The notes beneath the pieces were generated by a model. It was given only the letters and a program-made list of their open reading frames with translations. It had not been told where the DNA came from and did not search any database. Shown one piece after another: positions 10,561 to 50,934 of a stretch of 58,907 nt of DNA (the stretch's first letter is position 1; each line of letters opens with the position of its first letter). The position numbers and the translations under genes are program-made. The DNA is from Gemmatimonadota bacterium (GTDB taxonomy: Bacteria > Gemmatimonadota > Gemmatimonadetes > Gemmatimonadales > GWC2-71-9), in contig QHUJ01000130.1 of the NCBI GenBank assembly GCA_003221895.1, forward strand, positions 1 through 58,907, written 5' to 3'.

Positions 10561-11634
10561 ATGCCTGGACGAATGTTCATCGCACTCGCGGCACTGCGTC
10601 TGGTCGCTCCGGCCTTCGTCGCATGGAGCGCCGTGCCGTCGCCGCACCTCAAGTTGCCACGCGCCGTCAGCGAGGCGCCCCAAGCCACCATCACCGCCGA
10701 CCCGAAGCGCGACGAGCTCGTCCTCGAATTGCCCGCAGCCGATCTGCCCGCGGGAACAGTCGTCGAACCGCCGGCAGCGCTGGCGGAGTTTCCCGTGAAC
10801 GGCTCGCTCTACGCGTTCCACGCCGAGGTGGTGGACGAGCACGGTCGGCGGCTGCCCAATGAGTTTCTCCACCACATGAACGTGATGAGCCCGACCCAGC
10901 GCGAGCTGTTCCTGCCGATTGGCCGGCGCGTGTTGGCGTCGGGAAGAGAGACCGGGGAAGTGCGGTTCCCCTGGATCCTGTTTGGTGCGCAGGTTCAGGC
11001 GGGCGACCAGGTTTTGGCGAACGCCATGCTGCATAATCCGTCTGGCGTGAGTTATCACGGCGTCCGCGTTCGCGTCGTGTTGAGCTACGTGCCCGAGGGA
11101 CGACCGTGGCCCTTCTTCTCAGTGCTTCCCTGGCAGCTCGATGTCGGTTTCCCGGTGGGCGACAAGACGTTCGATCTGCCGCCCGGCCACAGTGAGCGGT
11201 CCTATGACGGAAGCCCTGCGGTCGCCGGCAAGCTGGTGGTGATCGGTGCGCACATGCACGACTACGGCCGGGCGATCGAGCTGTGGGACGCGACCACGGA
11301 GAAACTGCTCTGGCACGGCGAGCCCGCACGGACAGCGGCGGGTGAGTCCGGAGCCGTTCCCCCCACGAAGTTTTGGGGGCTCACGGGAATCGGACTGCGG
11401 ATCACGCCCGAGCATCGTTACCGTGTCCGCGTGATTTATGACAATCCGACCCAGCAGACGATTTCGGCCGGTGGCATGGGGGTCGTCGGCGGGCTGTTCA
11501 TCCCCGACCGCAACGCAGTGTGGCCGGCGACGAACCCGGATGACTCACTCTATCAGCACGACCTGCGGCACTTCATGCGCGTCGGAAAACCGGTGACCAC
11601 GGCGATGCCGATGAGTCACATGCACATGCACTAA
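10561..11634 (+). CDS. Secreted PHM-like (copper type II monooxygenase-like) protein
   Basis: 357 aa with an N-terminal hydrophobic export signal. Two histidine motifs recall peptidylglycine hydroxylating monooxygenases: FLHHMNVM (His104, His105), like the HHM motif of the first copper domain, and GAHMHDYGRAIELWD (His231, His233), like the HTHxLG motif of the second. The C-terminus is unusually His/Met-rich (MPMSHMHMH), a possible copper-binding tail. The mostly beta composition fits. Function is unproven; it could be a copper oxidase-type enzyme or a copper storage/binding protein. Start 10561 is preferred; an upstream frame from 10417 overlaps the pseudokinase gene. Convergent stop overlap with the PAP2 gene. 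Confidence 0.5.
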   Translation: MPGRMFIALAALRLVAPAFVAWSAVPSPHLKLPRAVSEAPQATITADPKRDELVLELPAADLPAGTVVEPPAALAEFPVNGSLYAFHAEVVDEHGRRLPNEFLHHMNVMSPTQRELFLPIGRRVLASGRETGEVRFPWILFGAQVQAGDQVLANAMLHNPSGVSYHGVRVRVVLSYVPEGRPWPFFSVLPWQLDVGFPVGDKTFDLPPGHSERSYDGSPAVAGKLVVIGAHMHDYGRAIELWDATTEKLLWHGEPARTAAGESGAVPPTKFWGLTGIGLRITPEHRYRVRVIYDNPTQQTISAGGMGVVGGLFIPDRNAVWPATNPDDSLYQHDLRHFMRVGKPVTTAMPMSHMHMH

Positions 11635-12569
11635 ACGCTGCGGCTGGACTCCACTCTGTAACCGCGGATCGTCACCCGCCGGGGCTCGCTCGCCTCGGCG
11701 GTTTGCATTAGGCCGATCATTACCGCCGCCACCATCAGTCCTGCCAGCGCATCAGCGGCATAGTGGAATTGTCCGTAGACAACGGCGAGGATGAGGCCGG
11801 CCGTGAACGGCAGCAGCGCGAGTCCGGCGGGCCGCCAGTAGCGGAGCGCCATGCCGGTCGCCACCACCGATGCGGCGACGTGCGAGGACGGGAATGCGGC
11901 GCCCCAGGAATCGCCGCGGTCGAGCAGCCAGGCGGCGAAGCGGGCAGGCCACACCTCGGTGGCCGCATTGTGGGCGCTATCGAATGCGTACCGTGGGCCG
12001 GCGACGGGGAAGAAGATGAACACGATGTAGCATAGATAGAACGTTGCCATCACGGCGAAGATCGTGTGCCGCGACGCGTCGCGCCGGCCGCTCATCCACA
12101 GCGCGAGTGGCGATGCGTAGAGGATTGGGTAATACGCGAGGTAGCACGCGTGCAGCCCCCATGAGAGCACGACACTCGGTGATTCCCGGATCCACCGATA
12201 GGAGATCTGCGAGCCGAACACCCAGGTCTCGAGGCGCTGGATCATGAGATCGTTCTGAAAGCCGGCGCTCAGCGTGAGGATGCCGATTTCGCCGTATAGC
12301 GCCGGCAGCAGCACCATCGGATACCAGTCGCCCAGAAAGCGGCCCACCCGGCCGGCTATGCGCGCCCGCGGCGCGAGCAGGACGAGCGCGCCGATCAACG
12401 CGTGTGCGGCGAGCAACCACGGCCAGGCTGGGACGCCGCCGCCACGAAAGGAGGAATAGAGCAGGGCGCCCGTCGCGATCACGACGTACGCCCCGGTGGC
12501 GAGATCGATGGCTGTGAAGTCGCGCCACAGCGTCTCGCCGCCGCCCCAATTCCGGCCGTTTACAGCCAT
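11631..12569 (-). CDS. PAP2-superfamily membrane protein, AUR1/inositol-phosphorylceramide synthase-like
   Basis: 312 aa, about six membrane helices. The PAP2 motifs are FPSSHVA (His230) and YGQFHYAADALAG (His269, Asp273). The intervals His-39-His and His-43-Asp equal those I recall for the catalytic triad of yeast Aur1 (His255, His294, Asp298), and the Arg of classical PAP2 C3 motifs is absent, as in AUR1-like enzymes. It is the last gene of a sphingolipid operon, overlapping the reductase gene by 10 bases, with GGGAGGTGGG before its ATG. A head-group transfer onto ceramide, or removal of phosphate from it, fits. A generic lipid phosphatase is the alternative. Confidence 0.68.
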   Translation of the reverse strand: MAVNGRNWGGGETLWRDFTAIDLATGAYVVIATGALLYSSFRGGGVPAWPWLLAAHALIGALVLLAPRARIAGRVGRFLGDWYPMVLLPALYGEIGILTLSAGFQNDLMIQRLETWVFGSQISYRWIRESPSVVLSWGLHACYLAYYPILYASPLALWMSGRRDASRHTIFAVMATFYLCYIVFIFFPVAGPRYAFDSAHNAATEVWPARFAAWLLDRGDSWGAAFPSSHVAASVVATGMALRYWRPAGLALLPFTAGLILAVVYGQFHYAADALAGLMVAAVMIGLMQTAEASEPRRVTIRGYRVESSRSV

Positions 12570-13531
12570 CCCACCTCCCGATACCAATTCGCGGCGCGGC
12601 GCAGCCCGTCCTCCAGCTCGATTTCGGCGCGCCAGCCGGTATCCCGCGTCAGGGCCTCGCTCCGGCACGTCCACGCGGGGGCAAGGTATTCATTGCCCTT
12701 GTCGGGCGACAACAAGGTGGGGCGCCCGCTGATCCGCGCAAGGCCCCCGATCGCCAGCAACACCCCGCGCGCCACCAGCGGCGGGACGCCGATGATCCGT
12801 GGCGTCTTTCCGAGCGCGCGACCTGCTGCCAGCGCGAGCGCACGGCTGGTGATGGGCGTCGGGTGCGTGGCGAAATAAACATGACCGGCCGCCGCGGGCG
12901 TAGTGGCCGCCACGATGAGCGCCCGCGCGAGATCCTCGGCATGAATGACCGATAATTCCTGGGATCCATCACCGAATAGCGGCACAAAGCCGCGTTTGGC
13001 TAGCTGGAAGATCTTGAGTGTGGCTCGGTCCCATTCGCCGTACACCAGCGGCGGCCGGACGATCGTCCAGGGGACTGGCATGGCTTGAACGAGCACCTCC
13101 GCTGCCAGCTTCGAGCGCCCGTAGTTGGTGACCGGGGCGGGCCGTCTTGATTCATCGACCGGATGGCCGGGCTCCGTTGGGCCGGCGACCGCGAGCGAGG
13201 AGACGACCACAGTCCGGCGCGCGCCGCCGTCTCGAGCCGCCTCGAGTACGTTCGCCGTCCCGTCGCGGTTCGTGGCCATGTATTCATCGGCGTTCCGCGC
13301 GGCGACCTTCCCGGCGACGTGGTACACCACGTCCACGCCCGCGCACCCCTCGCGCAGGACGGCCGCGTCACCCAGATCGCCTTTCACCTGCCGAACGTCC
13401 TTGCCCCAGCCGAGCGTCTCGGCGAGCGCGGGCCGGCGCACGAGCGCGGTGACCGAGTCTCCGCGCGCGCGCAACGCCTTGACCAGATGGGCACCCACGA
13501 AGCCGGTGCCGCCGGTCACGAAGGCTTTCAC
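12560..13531 (-). CDS. NAD-dependent epimerase/reductase, CerR-like (3-oxo-sphingolipid reductase)
   Basis: 323 aa extended SDR. Rossmann motif VTGGTGFVG (residues 5-13), catalytic Ser111/112, and YGRSK with Tyr137 and Lys141. In Caulobacter a sugar-epimerase-like SDR (CerR) reduces the 3-oxo group of the sphingoid/ceramide intermediate, and its gene lies close to spt. Here the gene sits between the GNAT and PAP2 genes of the same kind of operon, so that role is inferred from context. Start is the GTG of a GTGA overlap with the GNAT stop, which indicates translational coupling. An in-frame start at 13768 would overlap the GNAT gene deeply and is rejected. Confidence 0.72.
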   Translation of the reverse strand: MKAFVTGGTGFVGAHLVKALRARGDSVTALVRRPALAETLGWGKDVRQVKGDLGDAAVLREGCAGVDVVYHVAGKVAARNADEYMATNRDGTANVLEAARDGGARRTVVVSSLAVAGPTEPGHPVDESRRPAPVTNYGRSKLAAEVLVQAMPVPWTIVRPPLVYGEWDRATLKIFQLAKRGFVPLFGDGSQELSVIHAEDLARALIVAATTPAAAGHVYFATHPTPITSRALALAAGRALGKTPRIIGVPPLVARGVLLAIGGLARISGRPTLLSPDKGNEYLAPAWTCRSEALTRDTGWRAEIELEDGLRRAANWYREVGWL

Positions 13532-14640
13532 AGCGACTTGTCGTAGATGCGGAAGGTCTTGGAAACGCGGAACCCCAGCTGGGTGGCGGCCTTGTTCATC
13601 AACGCATTGTCCTCGAGGATCCATCCGGCTTCGCCGCTCGGCATCCCGTGTTTGACGGAATTCTCCCACACCTTCTGATACAGGAGCGCGTCGACTCCGC
13701 GGCCGCGGAATTCCGGGATCACGCCCAACAACAGAATGCGGGCGCGATGGATCTTCCGCGCATGCCACAACACCTTGAGAATGCCGGGGAACATCCGCCC
13801 CGAGCGGTTATGCAGCAGGGCGAGATTGAAATCGGGCAGTCCCACCCCGAATCCCACGATCCTTCCTTCCAGCTCGGCGTAGATCACCAGGTCCGGCACC
13901 ACAATCGGCTTGAGCTGCTTCGCCAGGTGATCGATCTCCGCCTCCGTCAACGGCACGAACCCCCAATTCTTTTCCCAGGCGCTGTTGTACAGCGCCTTGA
14001 TGAGCTCGACTTCTGCGTCGAACCGTTTCATGTCGAGGGTGCGGAGCTTGATGCCGCGACGTTCGCCGGCGCGTTGCGCCAGCCGGACGAAGCGCTCCGG
14101 CGCCGTTTGTGTGCCCCCGCCGTCAAACGCCAGGAGGTCCTTGGCTTTCGCGAAGCCATAGCGCTCGTGGAGTGCCTGATAGTACGGGAAGTTGTAGGGC
14201 ATCATCAGCGAGGGCGGCGTGCCGTTGTTAACAATCAAGAGGCCGCACTCGTCGTTGACCGACGGGCTCATCGGCCCGCGCATCGTGTCGAAGCCCTTGG
14301 TCCGCAGCCACGTCGCGGCGGTATCGAACAACGCGTTGGCGACGGCCTGATCATCGATCGATTCGAAGAAGCCGTAGAACCCGACGCGATCGTTGTGCTC
14401 CTTGTTATGCATGTCGTTCTTGATTGCGCCGATGCGACCCACCGTCCGCCCGTCCGCCCGTCTGGCCGTCCAGTACTGCGCTTCGGCGTGCTCGAAGAAC
14501 GGATTCTTCCCAGGGGTGAGAAGCGTGCGCATGTCTCGGCGCAGCTGCGGCACCCACAACGGATCATCACGGTAGTGGTCGTACGGGAAGGCGATGAAAC
14601 GATCGAGACCGCGCCCGTCGGAGACGGGCACGATCTCCAC
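13528..14640 (-). CDS. GNAT-family N-acyltransferase, bacterial ceramide synthase-like
   Basis: 370 aa, soluble. The C-terminal third has the GNAT acyl-CoA loop (GVIPEFRGRGVDALLY, about residues 297-312). The N-terminal half carries long conserved-looking stretches (FIAFPYDHYRDDPLWVPQLR; MRGPMSPSVNDECGLLI) found in a family of large GNAT proteins. The experimentally defined bacterial ceramide synthase of Caulobacter is of this GNAT type. Position between serine palmitoyltransferase and a CerR-like reductase supports acylation of the sphingoid base. The GTG at 14640 starts five bases after the spt stop; an in-frame extension to 14934 would overlap spt and is rejected. Confidence 0.75.
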   Translation of the reverse strand: MEIVPVSDGRGLDRFIAFPYDHYRDDPLWVPQLRRDMRTLLTPGKNPFFEHAEAQYWTARRADGRTVGRIGAIKNDMHNKEHNDRVGFYGFFESIDDQAVANALFDTAATWLRTKGFDTMRGPMSPSVNDECGLLIVNNGTPPSLMMPYNFPYYQALHERYGFAKAKDLLAFDGGGTQTAPERFVRLAQRAGERRGIKLRTLDMKRFDAEVELIKALYNSAWEKNWGFVPLTEAEIDHLAKQLKPIVVPDLVIYAELEGRIVGFGVGLPDFNLALLHNRSGRMFPGILKVLWHARKIHRARILLLGVIPEFRGRGVDALLYQKVWENSVKHGMPSGEAGWILEDNALMNKAATQLGFRVSKTFRIYDKSL

Positions 14641-14645
14641 TGCGG

Positions 14646-15851
14646 TCAGATGACCCCCAGCTCTTTCCCGAGGCGCCCGAAGACCTCGAGGGCGAGGTCG
14701 ATCTGGTCGGCCGTGTGGGTCGCCATCAGGCTGGTGCGCAGGCGGCACTGTGACGGCGGCACCGCGGGTGGCACCACCGGGTTCGTGAACACGCCGGCAT
14801 CGAACAGCTTGCGCCAGAAGAGGAACGTCTTCTCGAGCGGGCCGATCAGGACCGGAATGATGGGGGTCTCGGTCGGGCCGATATCGAAGCCCAGCGACCG
14901 CATGCCTTCCTGCAGCCGCCGAGTGTTGCGCCACAACTGCTCGCGCCGTTCCGGTTCGCGCTGCATGACGTGCAGGGCGGCGAGCACGCCGGCGGTATTT
15001 GAGGGCGGCAGGGCCGCCGTGAAGATCAAGGGCCGCGAGTGGTGGCGGAGATAGTGAATCACGGTCTCCGATCCAGCGGCGAACCCCCCGATCGACGCGA
15101 GGGACTTCGAGAACGTCCCGACGATCAGGTCGACTTCGTCGACGAGGTCGTAGTGGGCGGCAGTGCCGTCGCCCTTGGGACCGAGGACGCCGACCGAGTG
15201 GGCGTCATCGATCGCCAGCGCCGCGCCGTACTTCTGTGAGAGCTTGAGCAGGCCAGGGACGTCGGCGATGTCGCCTTCCATCGAGTAGACGCCATCCACG
15301 ATGATCATCGTGCCCGTGCCTTCGGGCACCTTCTGCAGCTTGCGCTCGAGGCTCGCCAGGTCGCCGTGGTTGAACCGTTGCGTTTCGCCGTGCGACATCT
15401 TGGCGCCGTCAACGATGGAGGCGTGGTCCAGCTTGTCGAGGAAGACCAGGTCCGCGCGTCCTACCAGGCCGGAGATGACGCCCAGGTTGGCCTGGTAACC
15501 GGTCGAGAAGACGAGGCAGGATTCCTTGCCGAAAAACTCCGCGAGCTCGGTTTCGAGCTGCTCGTGGAGATCGAGGGTGCCGTTCAGGAAGCGGCTGCCG
15601 GTGCACCCGGAGCCGTAGCGTTCCAGGGCGGCCCGGGCGGCGGCGAGGACCTCAGGGTGATGGGTGAGGCCGAGGTAGTTGTTCGACCCCATCATGACCC
15701 GCTCCTGGCCCTCGATCACGACGACCGTGTCTTCGGAGCGGGAGATCGGCTTGAAGTACGGGTAGAGCCCAGCAGCCTGGACTTCGCGCGCCCGGGTGAA
15801 ATTCTTACACTTGTCGAACAGCGCGATGTTCTGCAGGGTCTCTGTGCGCAC
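14646..15851 (-). CDS. spt: Serine palmitoyltransferase (alpha-oxoamine synthase family)
   Basis: 401 aa, PLP-dependent. It condenses serine with an acyl thioester to 3-oxosphinganine. Visible: PLP lysine Lys249 in GTFSKSLASIGG, the DDAHSVG motif (215-221) with the PLP-ring Asp, and His143 (LDHASI) stacking on the cofactor. The conserved region starts with YFKPISRSED, typical of bacterial SPT; KBL and BioF are relatives, but operon context favours SPT. GTG start with GAGG about six bases upstream. First gene of the sphingolipid operon. A divergent intergenic region (15852-16015) separates it from the M6 protease and should hold both promoters. Confidence 0.85.
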   Translation of the reverse strand: MRTETLQNIALFDKCKNFTRAREVQAAGLYPYFKPISRSEDTVVVIEGQERVMMGSNNYLGLTHHPEVLAAARAALERYGSGCTGSRFLNGTLDLHEQLETELAEFFGKESCLVFSTGYQANLGVISGLVGRADLVFLDKLDHASIVDGAKMSHGETQRFNHGDLASLERKLQKVPEGTGTMIIVDGVYSMEGDIADVPGLLKLSQKYGAALAIDDAHSVGVLGPKGDGTAAHYDLVDEVDLIVGTFSKSLASIGGFAAGSETVIHYLRHHSRPLIFTAALPPSNTAGVLAALHVMQREPERREQLWRNTRRLQEGMRSLGFDIGPTETPIIPVLIGPLEKTFLFWRKLFDAGVFTNPVVPPAVPPSQCRLRTSLMATHTADQIDLALEVFGRLGKELGVI

Positions 15852-48874: not shown

Positions 48875-49573
48875 ATGAATGTCATCCCCCAGAGCATCAA
48901 GGACGGTTTTGTCCGATTGACCGGCCCGCTGGTGCGTGCCTTGATTCGCGGCGGCGTCCATCCGAACGCAATTACGACCCTCGGTACCCTGGTGCTGATC
49001 GGCTCGGGCATTGCGTTCGGACTCAGCAAGGTCCGGCTGGGGGGTTCTCTGCTGCTGCTGAGCGGGGTGTTCGACATTCTCGACGGTCAGGTCGCGCGTC
49101 AGGGCGCTATGATGACCACGTTCGGCGCGTTCTACGACTCGACGGTCGACCGGATCGGCGAAGCAGCGGTCTTTACGGGATTGATCATCTACTTTCTGAC
49201 CGGTCCGCTGCCGCTGGAGCTCGTACCGACCGCGTTCGCGGCGGGATTGATCGCGCTCGTCGCGTCGCTGCTCGTCTCGTACACGCGGGCGAGGGCGGAA
49301 GGGCTCGGGGTCGAGTGCAAAGTGGGCATTGCGGCGCGCGCGGAGCGGATTCTCTTCCTCGGCCTGCCCGCGATGGTGTTCGGGGAAGGGCCGGGGCGCC
49401 CAGGCGTCCTGCTGTTCTATATCGTGTCCGTGCTCGCGTTCGTCTCCGTGATCACGGTGATCCAGCGGATCGCGCATGTCGCGCGCGTGGCGCGCGGCGT
49501 TCCGCCGCCCGCGCCGTTTCCCAAACGTGAGACGTTACCAGGAGTCGCGGCGGTACGCCGCAAGGGACACTGA
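48875..49573 (+). CDS. CDP-alcohol phosphatidyltransferase, possible phosphatidylinositol(-phosphate) synthase
   Basis: 232 aa, about six helices. The CDP-OH-P motif is intact: DILDGQVARQGAMMTTFGAF and Asp-x3-Asp (YDSTVD), i.e. D-x2-DG-x2-AR-x8-G-x3-D-x3-D. It transfers a phosphatidyl or similar group from CDP-diacylglycerol to an alcohol. The next gene, overlapping by one base (TGATG), is inositol-3-phosphate synthase, so the alcohol is probably inositol or inositol phosphate. Actinobacterial PIP synthases and Bacteroides inositol-lipid enzymes have the same motif and context. Confidence 0.8.
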   Translation: MNVIPQSIKDGFVRLTGPLVRALIRGGVHPNAITTLGTLVLIGSGIAFGLSKVRLGGSLLLLSGVFDILDGQVARQGAMMTTFGAFYDSTVDRIGEAAVFTGLIIYFLTGPLPLELVPTAFAAGLIALVASLLVSYTRARAEGLGVECKVGIAARAERILFLGLPAMVFGEGPGRPGVLLFYIVSVLAFVSVITVIQRIAHVARVARGVPPPAPFPKRETLPGVAAVRRKGH

Positions 49574-50934
49574 TGGCTCGGGAACAAATGAATACGGCTG
49601 TCATGACCGGGGGTGGACGAGAAATCGCCCCGGCGACAGGAAAACTCGGTATCATGCTCGTCGGTCTCGGCGCGGTGTCGACGACGTTCATCGCCGGCGT
49701 GGAAAACGTGCGGCGCGGGCACTCGCTGCCGATCGGGTCGCTCAGCCAGATGGCCACGATTCGCCTCGGCAAACGCACCGACAAACGCGCCCCCAAGATC
49801 AAGGAGTTCGTGCCGCTCGCGGATCTCAAGGACCTCGTGTTCGCCGCGTGGGATCCCATTCCCGACGACGCCTACACCGCCGCGGTTAAGGCCGGTGTGC
49901 TCGATCGGCACGAGCATCTCGACCCGATCAAGGCGTTCCTGCAGGACATCACGCCGATGCCCGCCGTGTTCGATCAGTACTACGTGAAGCGGCTGCAGGG
50001 GACGAACGTCAAACGCGGCAAGAACAAGCGCGAGCTGGCCGAACAGCTGCGTGACGACATCCGCGCATTCAAGAAGAACTCCGGGCTCGACCGGATCGTG
50101 ATCGTCTGGTGCGCGTCCACCGAAGTCTTCCTCACCCCGGGGCCCGCGCATCAGTCGCTGCAGGCCTTTGAAAAAGCGATGGAGCAGAATGACCAGTCGA
50201 TTGCCCCGTCGATGGTGTACGCCTACGCGGCGTTGATGGAGAACGTCCCCTTCGCAAACGGCGCGCCCAATCTGACGGTCGACCTCCCCGTCATGGAGCG
50301 GTTGGCGGAGGAGCGCCACGTGCCGATCGGCGGCAAGGACTTCAAGACCGGTCAGACGATGATGAAGAGCGTACTCGCGCCGGCGTTCAAGGCTCGGATG
50401 CTGGGGCTCTCCGGCTGGTACTCCACGAACATCCTGGGCAATCGCGACGGTGAAGTGCTCGACGACCCCGAATCATTCAAGACGAAGGAAGAGTCGAAAC
50501 TGGGCCTGCTCGAGCACATTCTGCAGCCGGATGTCTATCCGGAGCTGTACGGGAAGGTGTACCACAAGGTGCGGATCAACTATTACCCGCCGCGTGGTGA
50601 CAACAAAGAGGGCTGGGACAACATCGACATCTTCGGATGGCTCGGCTATCCGATGCAGATCAAGGTCGACTTCCTGTGCCGGGACTCGATCCTCGCGGCG
50701 CCGATCGTGCTCGACCTGGCATTGTTCTTCGACCTGGCCGCGCGGGCGGGTCTGTCGGGCATCCAGGAGTGGCTCTCTTTCTACTTTAAGAGCCCCCAAT
50801 TCGCGCCTGGCCTGTACGCCGAGCACGATCTGTTCATTCAGCAGATCAAGCTGAAGAACACCTTGCGATGGATGATGGGCGAGGAGCAGATCACTCACCT
50901 CGGCATCGAGTACTACGAATACGCGGAAAAATAG
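49573..50934 (+). CDS. ino1: Inositol-3-phosphate synthase
   Basis: 453 aa. Converts glucose 6-phosphate to 1L-myo-inositol 3-phosphate (NAD-dependent). Evidence: N-terminal LGIMLVGLGAVSTTFIAGV (NAD site), the catalytic-region segments VPIGGKDFKTGQTMMKSVLAPAF and GWYSTNILGNRDGEVLDDPESFKTKEESK, and VYHKVRINYYPPRGDNKEGWDNIDIFGW. These are specific to the Ino1/MIPS family. TGATG coupling with the CDP-alcohol transferase. This points to inositol-containing lipids rather than free osmolyte. Confidence 0.93.
   Translation: MAREQMNTAVMTGGGREIAPATGKLGIMLVGLGAVSTTFIAGVENVRRGHSLPIGSLSQMATIRLGKRTDKRAPKIKEFVPLADLKDLVFAAWDPIPDDAYTAAVKAGVLDRHEHLDPIKAFLQDITPMPAVFDQYYVKRLQGTNVKRGKNKRELAEQLRDDIRAFKKNSGLDRIVIVWCASTEVFLTPGPAHQSLQAFEKAMEQNDQSIAPSMVYAYAALMENVPFANGAPNLTVDLPVMERLAEERHVPIGGKDFKTGQTMMKSVLAPAFKARMLGLSGWYSTNILGNRDGEVLDDPESFKTKEESKLGLLEHILQPDVYPELYGKVYHKVRINYYPPRGDNKEGWDNIDIFGWLGYPMQIKVDFLCRDSILAAPIVLDLALFFDLAARAGLSGIQEWLSFYFKSPQFAPGLYAEHDLFIQQIKLKNTLRWMMGEEQITHLGIEYYEYAEK

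Follow-up and report, generated by a model that had tools for sequence, protein, structure and literature searches.

The ceramide genes of Caulobacter crescentus are described as AasR, CerR, AcpR and Spt, with CerS apart, and an extract of PMC11324152 states that bacterial cerS always lies in an operon separate from the de novo genes and ascribes the acyl-CoA type of serine palmitoyltransferase (SPT) to Bacteroidetes. Inositol phosphorylceramide (IPC) synthases are represented by AUR1 of fungi and BT_1522 of Bacteroides, and Bacteroides thetaiotaomicron also makes ceramide phosphoethanolamine (EPC), for whose synthase one paper found no match (PMC8791184). Here we describe a stretch of 58,907 nucleotides from a Gemmatimonadota bacterium (contig QHUJ01000130.1 of assembly GCA_003221895.1; hereafter the window), which is contig C131 of a 3.71-Mb genome that is 97% complete and which carries adjoining genes for SPT, a GNAT-family protein, an extended short-chain dehydrogenase/reductase (SDR) and a PAP2_3 membrane protein. 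The four-gene set very probably makes ceramide, as judged from protein kinship and gene order, and its PAP2 protein is, on balance, a likely ceramide phospho-headgroup transferase, whatever the donor. The PAP2 protein is AUR1-like in fold and triad, although none of the sequence tests made places it in the AUR1/BT_1522 family. Among the best matches in open-licence PMC, we found no printed account of this operon or of Gemmatimonadota sphingolipids, in a search that did not extend to a 2022 survey by Stankeviciute and colleagues, which is said to cover many phyla. The string "Gemmatimon" is absent from the main texts of two articles about sphingolipids in the Black Sea.

All four genes lie on the minus strand, head to tail, with frames open throughout:

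15851-14646 (14646..15851), minus strand: SPT, first gene of the set (GTG...TGA, 401 aa)
14640-13528 (13528..14640), minus strand: GNAT-family protein, predicted bacterial ceramide synthase (CerS) (GTG...TGA, 370 aa)
13531-12560 (12560..13531), minus strand: extended SDR, predicted CerR (GTG...TAA, 323 aa)
12569-11631 (11631..12569), minus strand: PAP2_3 membrane protein, predicted ceramide phospho-headgroup transferase (ATG...TAG, 312 aa)

SPT and GNAT are spaced by 5 nt, GNAT and SDR share 4 nt in a GTGA overlap, and SDR and PAP2 overlap by 10 nt; coordinates and junctions, all of which the initial annotation had given, were confirmed when the frames were read again. A 356-aa frame without a Pfam match occupies positions 10564-11634 of the plus strand and ends inside the 3' terminus of PAP2, which runs on the opposite strand.

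The best curated model for the SPT protein was NF047600 (serine palmitoyltransferase), with a score of 535.7 bits that is under the cut-off of 640 and exceeds those of the bioF (400.2) and glycine C-acetyltransferase models; SPT chains lead the list of Protein Data Bank (PDB) matches (1.5e-128), and SPT was thus the best match among alpha-oxoamine synthases. The GNAT and SDR proteins, which matched PF00583 (2.6e-7) and PF01370 (4.2e-38), respectively, were anchored not with Caulobacter sequences but with a Pseudomonas plasmid. This plasmid carries a fatty acyl-AMP ligase, an SDR, a phosphopantetheine-binding protein and SPT, with a GNAT gene alongside, near LptF/LptG, and the extract of PMC11324152 gives the same order, AasR, CerR, AcpR and SPT, for Caulobacter. 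The window GNAT was 35.7% identical over 99% to the plasmid GNAT, which holds the CerS place beside SPT, and the window SDR was 33.7% identical over 95% to the plasmid SDR, which holds the CerR place between the fatty acyl-AMP ligase and the acyl-carrier/SPT genes. Given that YghO of Escherichia coli is also kin of the window GNAT (34.9%), kinship alone does not prove the latter to be CerS, and its place beside SPT weighs more. At least 19 of the 24 plasmid records with an SDR match were also among the listed SPT or GNAT rows, as judged by eye. The GNAT protein is a predicted ceramide synthase and the SDR a predicted CerR, and the unit is very probably of the bacterial SPT/CerS/CerR ceramide type; the plasmid and the gene order support the initial assignment of these proteins to the enzyme types of the Caulobacter route. 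The four genes abut and leave no room inside the unit for a carrier-protein or acyl-acyl carrier protein (ACP) synthetase gene, which fits the acyl-CoA type of SPT, the unit itself having been examined and the rest of the genome not having been searched.

The PAP2 protein matched PF14378 (PAP2_3) at 8.4e-17, and PAP2_3 and PAP2 were the only Pfam families at E ≤ 0.01. Its domain carries the His-His-Asp triad (His230, His269 and Asp273, with spacings of 39 and 43) as originally reported, and the triad is unchanged in 26 rows comprising this protein and 25 homologues 32-82% identical to it. With an AlphaFold2 model of the protein (mean pLDDT 90.2, pTM 0.88), Foldseek returned a sole match at E ≤ 0.001, the structure of AUR1 with ceramide (9vj4), followed by AUR1-Kei1 (9ivc) at 4.3e-3. 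In VIA-align, the Z score was 17.0 over 257 residues for 9vj4 and 16.7 over 272 residues for 9ivc, and the next folds were LpxE (14.1 over 162 residues), YodM (13.4 over 170) and sphingomyelin synthase-related protein (SMSr; 12.1 over 195), it being noted by the tool that helical proteins can reach a Z score of about 13 by chance. The best fold match was thus AUR1 rather than a PAP2 phosphatase, with about 100 residues more coverage, and since it extends over 257-272 residues, the N-terminal helices, which are missing in small phosphatases, are AUR1-like too. AUR1 structures therefore came first in the structure-based search suggested by the initial annotation; its reservation that the protein might align best with generic PAP2 proteins did not hold for the fold, whereas by profile the only PDB matches were weak ones to PAP2 phosphatases. 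In the model, 12 basic residues lie on one membrane side and 7 on that of the triad, with helix ends set by hand, and because the triad's side has fewer, the triad is weakly placed towards the periplasm.

Sequence comparisons separated the protein from known IPC synthases. No NCBIfam model was matched by the window PAP2 at E ≤ 0.01, so that NF052609 (phosphoinositol dihydroceramide synthase) was not matched either; a PDB sequence search gave nothing at E ≤ 1, including no AUR1 chain; and a PDB search with the 26-row profile gave no AUR1 chain at E ≤ 1 and three weak PAP2 phosphatase matches, the best being YodM (E 0.018). A PAP2 protein from a Hymenobacter plasmid record, serving as a positive control, matched NF052609 at 1.9e-102 (342.8 bits, under the curated cut-off of 480) and found AUR1 chains by sequence (5.7e-15); it lies in a cluster with myo-inositol-phosphate synthase (MIPS) homology, PgpA, GtrA and a CDP-alcohol transferase that resembles BT_1522-1526 as presented in an excerpt of PMC9246714. 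On these grounds, common descent with AUR1-type IPC synthases is not supported. The AUR1 sequence does give the spacings of 39 and 43 that the initial annotation had stated for yeast Aur1; as a sign of AUR1, however, this spacing was rejected, given that it occurs in all PAP2 groups compared: in 132 of 140 window-type frames (some being duplicates of one genome), three of seven frames assigned to the IPC type and two of three SDR-linked frames of Bacteroidota. The window PAP2 has the motifs PVAGP, FPSSH and YGQFHY, and the IPC-type proteins PAAPPW, MPSLH and Y.SHHY. Looked for elsewhere in the phylum, IPC-type PAP2 gave weak matches to the Hymenobacter protein (best 8.8e-11) in 4 of 200 genomes, not including that of the window.

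Nearer kin were found in Bacteroidota. With profiles built from three sequences each, the window PAP2 scored 68.4 bits against the SDR-linked PAP2 of Bacteroidota versus 14.5 bits against the IPC type. In Bacteroides finegoldii (L135 4700-6663), a PAP2_3 gene directly follows and overlaps an SDR gene on the same strand, the pair lying between rnr and dusB, and Prevotella F0039 has the same pair (L137 4942-6918). The latter also has an IPC-type PAP2, so that the two kinds probably differ in task. The PAP2 of the SDR-linked pair in these two organisms could be a phosphosphingolipid enzyme that is still missing. A tree was built quickly from 70 chosen rows rather than all PAP2 frames and has long branches; it separated the set of rows designated IPC-type from all others, the window PAP2 included (SH-aLRT 99). 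The IPC-type set included three Gemmatimonadota rows and one Streptomyces row of unassigned function, and the SDR-linked Bacteroidota proteins occupied a different branch of the same large side as the window PAP2. In approximately unbiased (AU) tests, joining the window PAP2 to all eight IPC-type rows was not rejected (p 0.16), joining it to the four surest rows alone was rejected (p 3e-95, in a test that also forces the other four out), and joining the SDR-linked Bacteroidota rows to the IPC-type set was not rejected (p 0.34). Given that both joinings are left standing, the deep branching order of the PAP2 groups is open.

Conservation was examined in a sample of 200 genomes of the phylum, with homologues accepted at E ≤ 1e-3 for PAP2, ≤ 1e-10 for GNAT and ≤ 1e-100 for SPT; PAP2 was found in 85 genomes, GNAT in 111, SPT in 76 and MIPS in 180. 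In 59 of the 76 genomes with SPT, a PAP2 homologue was no more than 6 kb away from it, on the same strand in 55 of these 59; irrespective of location, PAP2 was present in 68 of the 76 versus 17 of the 124 genomes without SPT (Fisher p 7e-28, kinship uncorrected). In contrast to the published statement that cerS stands apart, the window GNAT adjoins SPT, and in 72 of the 76 genomes the two genes are at most 5 kb apart, a count for which 111 of 123 GNAT rows were used and the 12 weakest left out. A sample of the family (102 genomes) yielded SPT in 92, PAP2 in 88 and MIPS in 95, and in a scan of named genomes, from which the best 80 of 242 relatives were kept, 55 of the 80 loci had both SPT and PAP2. 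Three Acidobacteria/Vicinamibacteria contigs (L113, L118 and L121) carry GNAT-SDR-PAP2 without a recognised SPT, and in the actinobacterium Nonomuraea a stretch of 5 kb holds PAP2, SDR, GNAT and an SPT split in two, with both strands used. G050:C5 (L146 4818-6727) contains a second overlapping SDR-PAP2 pair, in which the PAP2 is more distantly related. Contigs titled Acidobacteria (L081) and Actinobacteria (L084) encode PAP2 proteins 83% and 70% identical to that of the window, and are probably Gemmatimonadota contigs misplaced in those bins.

From the observed gene order and its conservation, the protein families, the triad, the fold and the donor genes, we infer that the four genes would form one unit, presumably co-transcribed, for a phosphosphingolipid. 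SPT would join serine and acyl-CoA, the GNAT (CerS) would N-acylate, and the SDR (CerR) would reduce the keto group to give dihydroceramide, presumably with CerS and CerR acting in that order. The PAP2_3 protein would be an inner-membrane enzyme of about eight helices whose active site would face the periplasm; it would take the phospho-headgroup from a glycerophospholipid, with a triad histidine carrying the phosphoryl group, after which diacylglycerol would leave and the 1-OH of ceramide would accept the headgroup. For the donor, phosphatidylinositol (PI) is slightly favoured but still tentative, phosphatidylethanolamine (PE) comes next, and any other donor is improbable. Two genes elsewhere in the window could supply PI:

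48875..49573, plus strand: phosphatidylinositol-phosphate synthase (PIPS), possible donor supply (NF045883, 145.7 bits, cut-off 170; PIS structure 5d92, 2.8e-29)
49573..50934, plus strand: MIPS, possible donor supply (PF07994, 3.5e-96; PF01658, 1.7e-33)

These genes overlap by 1 base and lie 33 kb from SPT, and ceramide and PIPS-MIPS units share one contig, 31-41 kb apart as judged by eye, in G002, G022, G138, G013 and G044. In the 200-genome sample, PAP2 was present in 85 of 180 genomes with MIPS versus none of 20 without it. The choice between donors turns in part on G015 (99% complete), which has SPT-GNAT-SDR and a phosphatidylserine (PS) synthase-type gene beside a PS decarboxylase gene. 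It also encodes two more CDP-alcohol transferases, of which one did not resemble PIPS in blastp; PAP2 and MIPS were not found in this genome, and the PIPS gene that accompanies MIPS in its kin was not seen. Its genus-mate G250 has MIPS with an adjoining transferase gene, and part of a PAP2 gene where a contig ends; no SPT was found there. G015 thus points slightly to PI rather than PE, though as one case in a small genome. MIPS was not found in seven of the 102 family genomes, and in two of these besides G015, G234 and G248 (72 and 80% complete), PAP2 was likewise not found. Among family genomes at least 90% complete, MIPS was present in 49 of 50 and PAP2 in 46 of 50, so that the coincidence in G015 alone is weak.

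Besides the conserved place of PAP2 beside SPT, several findings speak for a transferase: AUR1 with ceramide outranks LpxE as the best solved fold, kin of this PAP2 follow an SDR in Bacteroidota as well, and other SPT-GNAT-SDR clusters carry different candidate finishing genes at the position of PAP2. Others weigh against it or against PI as its donor. A match to a predicted fold cannot separate a transferase from a phosphatase, and the protein is outside the IPC-synthase family as far as model and sequence matches can tell. Among the 76 genomes with SPT, 8 gave no PAP2. The contigs of G194 and G204 stop shortly after or inside the SDR gene, so that PAP2 may merely be cut off, and in G148 no PAP2 was present in about 6.8 kb beyond the SDR. 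In several genomes, PAP2_3 homologues occur at a distance from any ceramide gene, and those in G119:C158, G041:C218, G044:C7 and G133:C7 (L139-L142) are 40-46% identical to the window PAP2. Since MIPS occurs in 180 of 200 genomes, with or without ceramide genes, its presence is weak support for IPC; G015 is the only one of 76 SPT genomes without MIPS, so that co-loss of PAP2 and MIPS was seen once; and in four family genomes (G205, G239, G243 and G256, 63-75% complete) PAP2 is present and MIPS was not found. These four incomplete genomes and the nearer kinship to the Bacteroidota protein weigh against PI, and confidence in the donor is split for this reason. Of the initial proposal that the operon makes a ceramide and then adds a phospho-headgroup, the ceramide unit, the conserved link to PAP2, the triad and the AUR1 fold stand, whereas descent as an AUR1-type IPC synthase does not.

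Most PAP2 proteins are phosphatases, and the strongest alternative, though an unlikely one, is that PAP2 works as a lipid phosphatase, either for the unit or in inositol-lipid metabolism, and dephosphorylates, for example, phosphatidylinositol phosphate (PIP), ceramide-1-phosphate or phosphatidic acid. LpxE, YodM and PgpB are the next solved folds after AUR1, and YodM is the best profile match; the joint absence of PAP2, PIPS and MIPS in G015 would fit a PIP phosphatase equally well; and a PIP-dephosphorylating gene of the window genome is not yet assigned, no search having been made for one. The phosphatase folds, however, match only 162-170 residues versus 257-272 for AUR1, and 95 of 180 MIPS genomes are without PAP2, so that PI does not generally need it; PAP2 tracks SPT instead. 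Somewhat less likely again is that the same unit uses PE and yields EPC, a reading that differs from the PI-dependent transferase in the donor only. The higher score with the SDR-linked Bacteroidota profile, the probable difference in task between the two PAP2 kinds of Prevotella F0039, the EPC of B. thetaiotaomicron and the presence of PS decarboxylase in seven of seven genomes examined, the window's included, all agree with PE; yet G015 keeps PS synthase and PS decarboxylase and is without PAP2, the task of the SDR-linked Bacteroidota protein is not known, and the AU test does not separate that protein from the IPC-type set. That the PAP2 gene is a chance neighbour, or encodes a general PAP2 enzyme not acting on ceramide, is improbable: homologues do stand away from ceramide genes in the four genomes named above, but the genes stay adjacent in different families and classes of the phylum, adjacency is also seen outside it, and PAP2 is associated with SPT.

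Other genes that might complete a ceramide were also found beside ceramide genes or in the same genomes. Contig C88 of the window genome (L177, G000:C88 6349-12578) encodes a HAD hydrolase, an NTP transferase, an unnamed protein, a CDP-alcohol transferase and an LPG-synthase-like membrane protein, which are 28-33% identical to their counterparts in B. finegoldii and P. massiliensis; genes for a class III aminotransferase and for a Gfo/Idh dehydrogenase are present in addition. The block resembles the alternative inositol-lipid cluster of Bacteroidota outlined in the excerpt of PMC9246714. A block of this kind begins slightly more than 1 kb beyond PAP2, in the opposite direction, in at least 13 of 80 loci, many of which are short; loci with such a block by ceramide genes are L063-L065, L067, L069, L071, L074-L076, L078-L080 and L082, and L183-L186. 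In G105, G108 and G026 it stands just past the SDR of clusters without PAP2, a PAP2 homologue being located elsewhere in each genome. The block perhaps makes an amino-polyol phospho-headgroup. A Rubrobacter radiotolerans plasmid (L174 5671-11263) carries SPT, GNAT and SDR followed by a member of the LTA synthase family (sulfatase fold) that could transfer phosphoglycerol to ceramide. A plasmid of Streptomyces sp. NBC_01001 (L189 3639-8165) carries overlapping genes for SPT, GNAT, SDR and a condensation-domain protein, the last perhaps for further acylation. We read these arrangements as a ceramide core with exchangeable finishing modules, and the occurrence of such modules after SPT-GNAT-SDR supports a finishing task for PAP2.

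A bolder possibility, which we hold only tentatively, is that the PAP2_3 proteins linked to CerR in Gemmatimonadota, Acidobacteriota, Nonomuraea and Bacteroidota constitute a family of their own among bacterial ceramide phospho-headgroup synthases, one that is neither AUR1/BT_1522 nor sphingomyelin synthase and that includes the unidentified EPC synthase of Bacteroides. If the transferase assignment is true, a compact and portable set of four genes would equip many members of a soil and water phylum to produce complex phosphosphingolipids. It would then become testable which kind of enzyme completes bacterial ceramides in several phyla, and the Bacteroides synthase of ethanolamine phosphoceramide, a lipid abundant in the vesicles of that organism, would gain a candidate.

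Compared with known systems, the window PAP2 resembles AUR1 and BT_1522 in a PAP2_3-type fold over most of its length, in triad spacing and in the presence of ceramide genes or PI genes in the genome; it differs from them in lacking an NF052609 or AUR1 sequence match, in its motifs and in its placement with SPT-GNAT-SDR rather than in a MIPS/PIPS cluster. SMSr is similar in reaction class in principle, whereas its fold match is shorter and weaker than that of AUR1 and the Pfam families of the window PAP2 are PAP2_3 and PAP2 alone. The alternative inositol-lipid cluster of Bacteroides vulgatus and Prevotella, as far as the excerpt of PMC9246714 describes it, has homologous genes in the window genome, but these lie outside the four-gene unit, and the Gemmatimonadota version adds the aminotransferase and the dehydrogenase. 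Caulobacter shares the SPT, GNAT and SDR enzyme types, going by the extract of PMC11324152; in the window, however, the GNAT belongs to the same unit as SPT and neither a carrier nor an acyl-ACP synthetase gene lies between the genes, and Caulobacter phosphosphingolipids arise by a ceramide kinase route, not through PAP2. The SDR-linked PAP2 proteins of B. finegoldii and Prevotella F0039 share with the window the order of SDR then PAP2 on the same strand, the FPSSH motif and 28% identity over 203 residues, and differ in that neither SPT nor GNAT adjoins them in the stretches examined and in occupying a separate branch of the tree.

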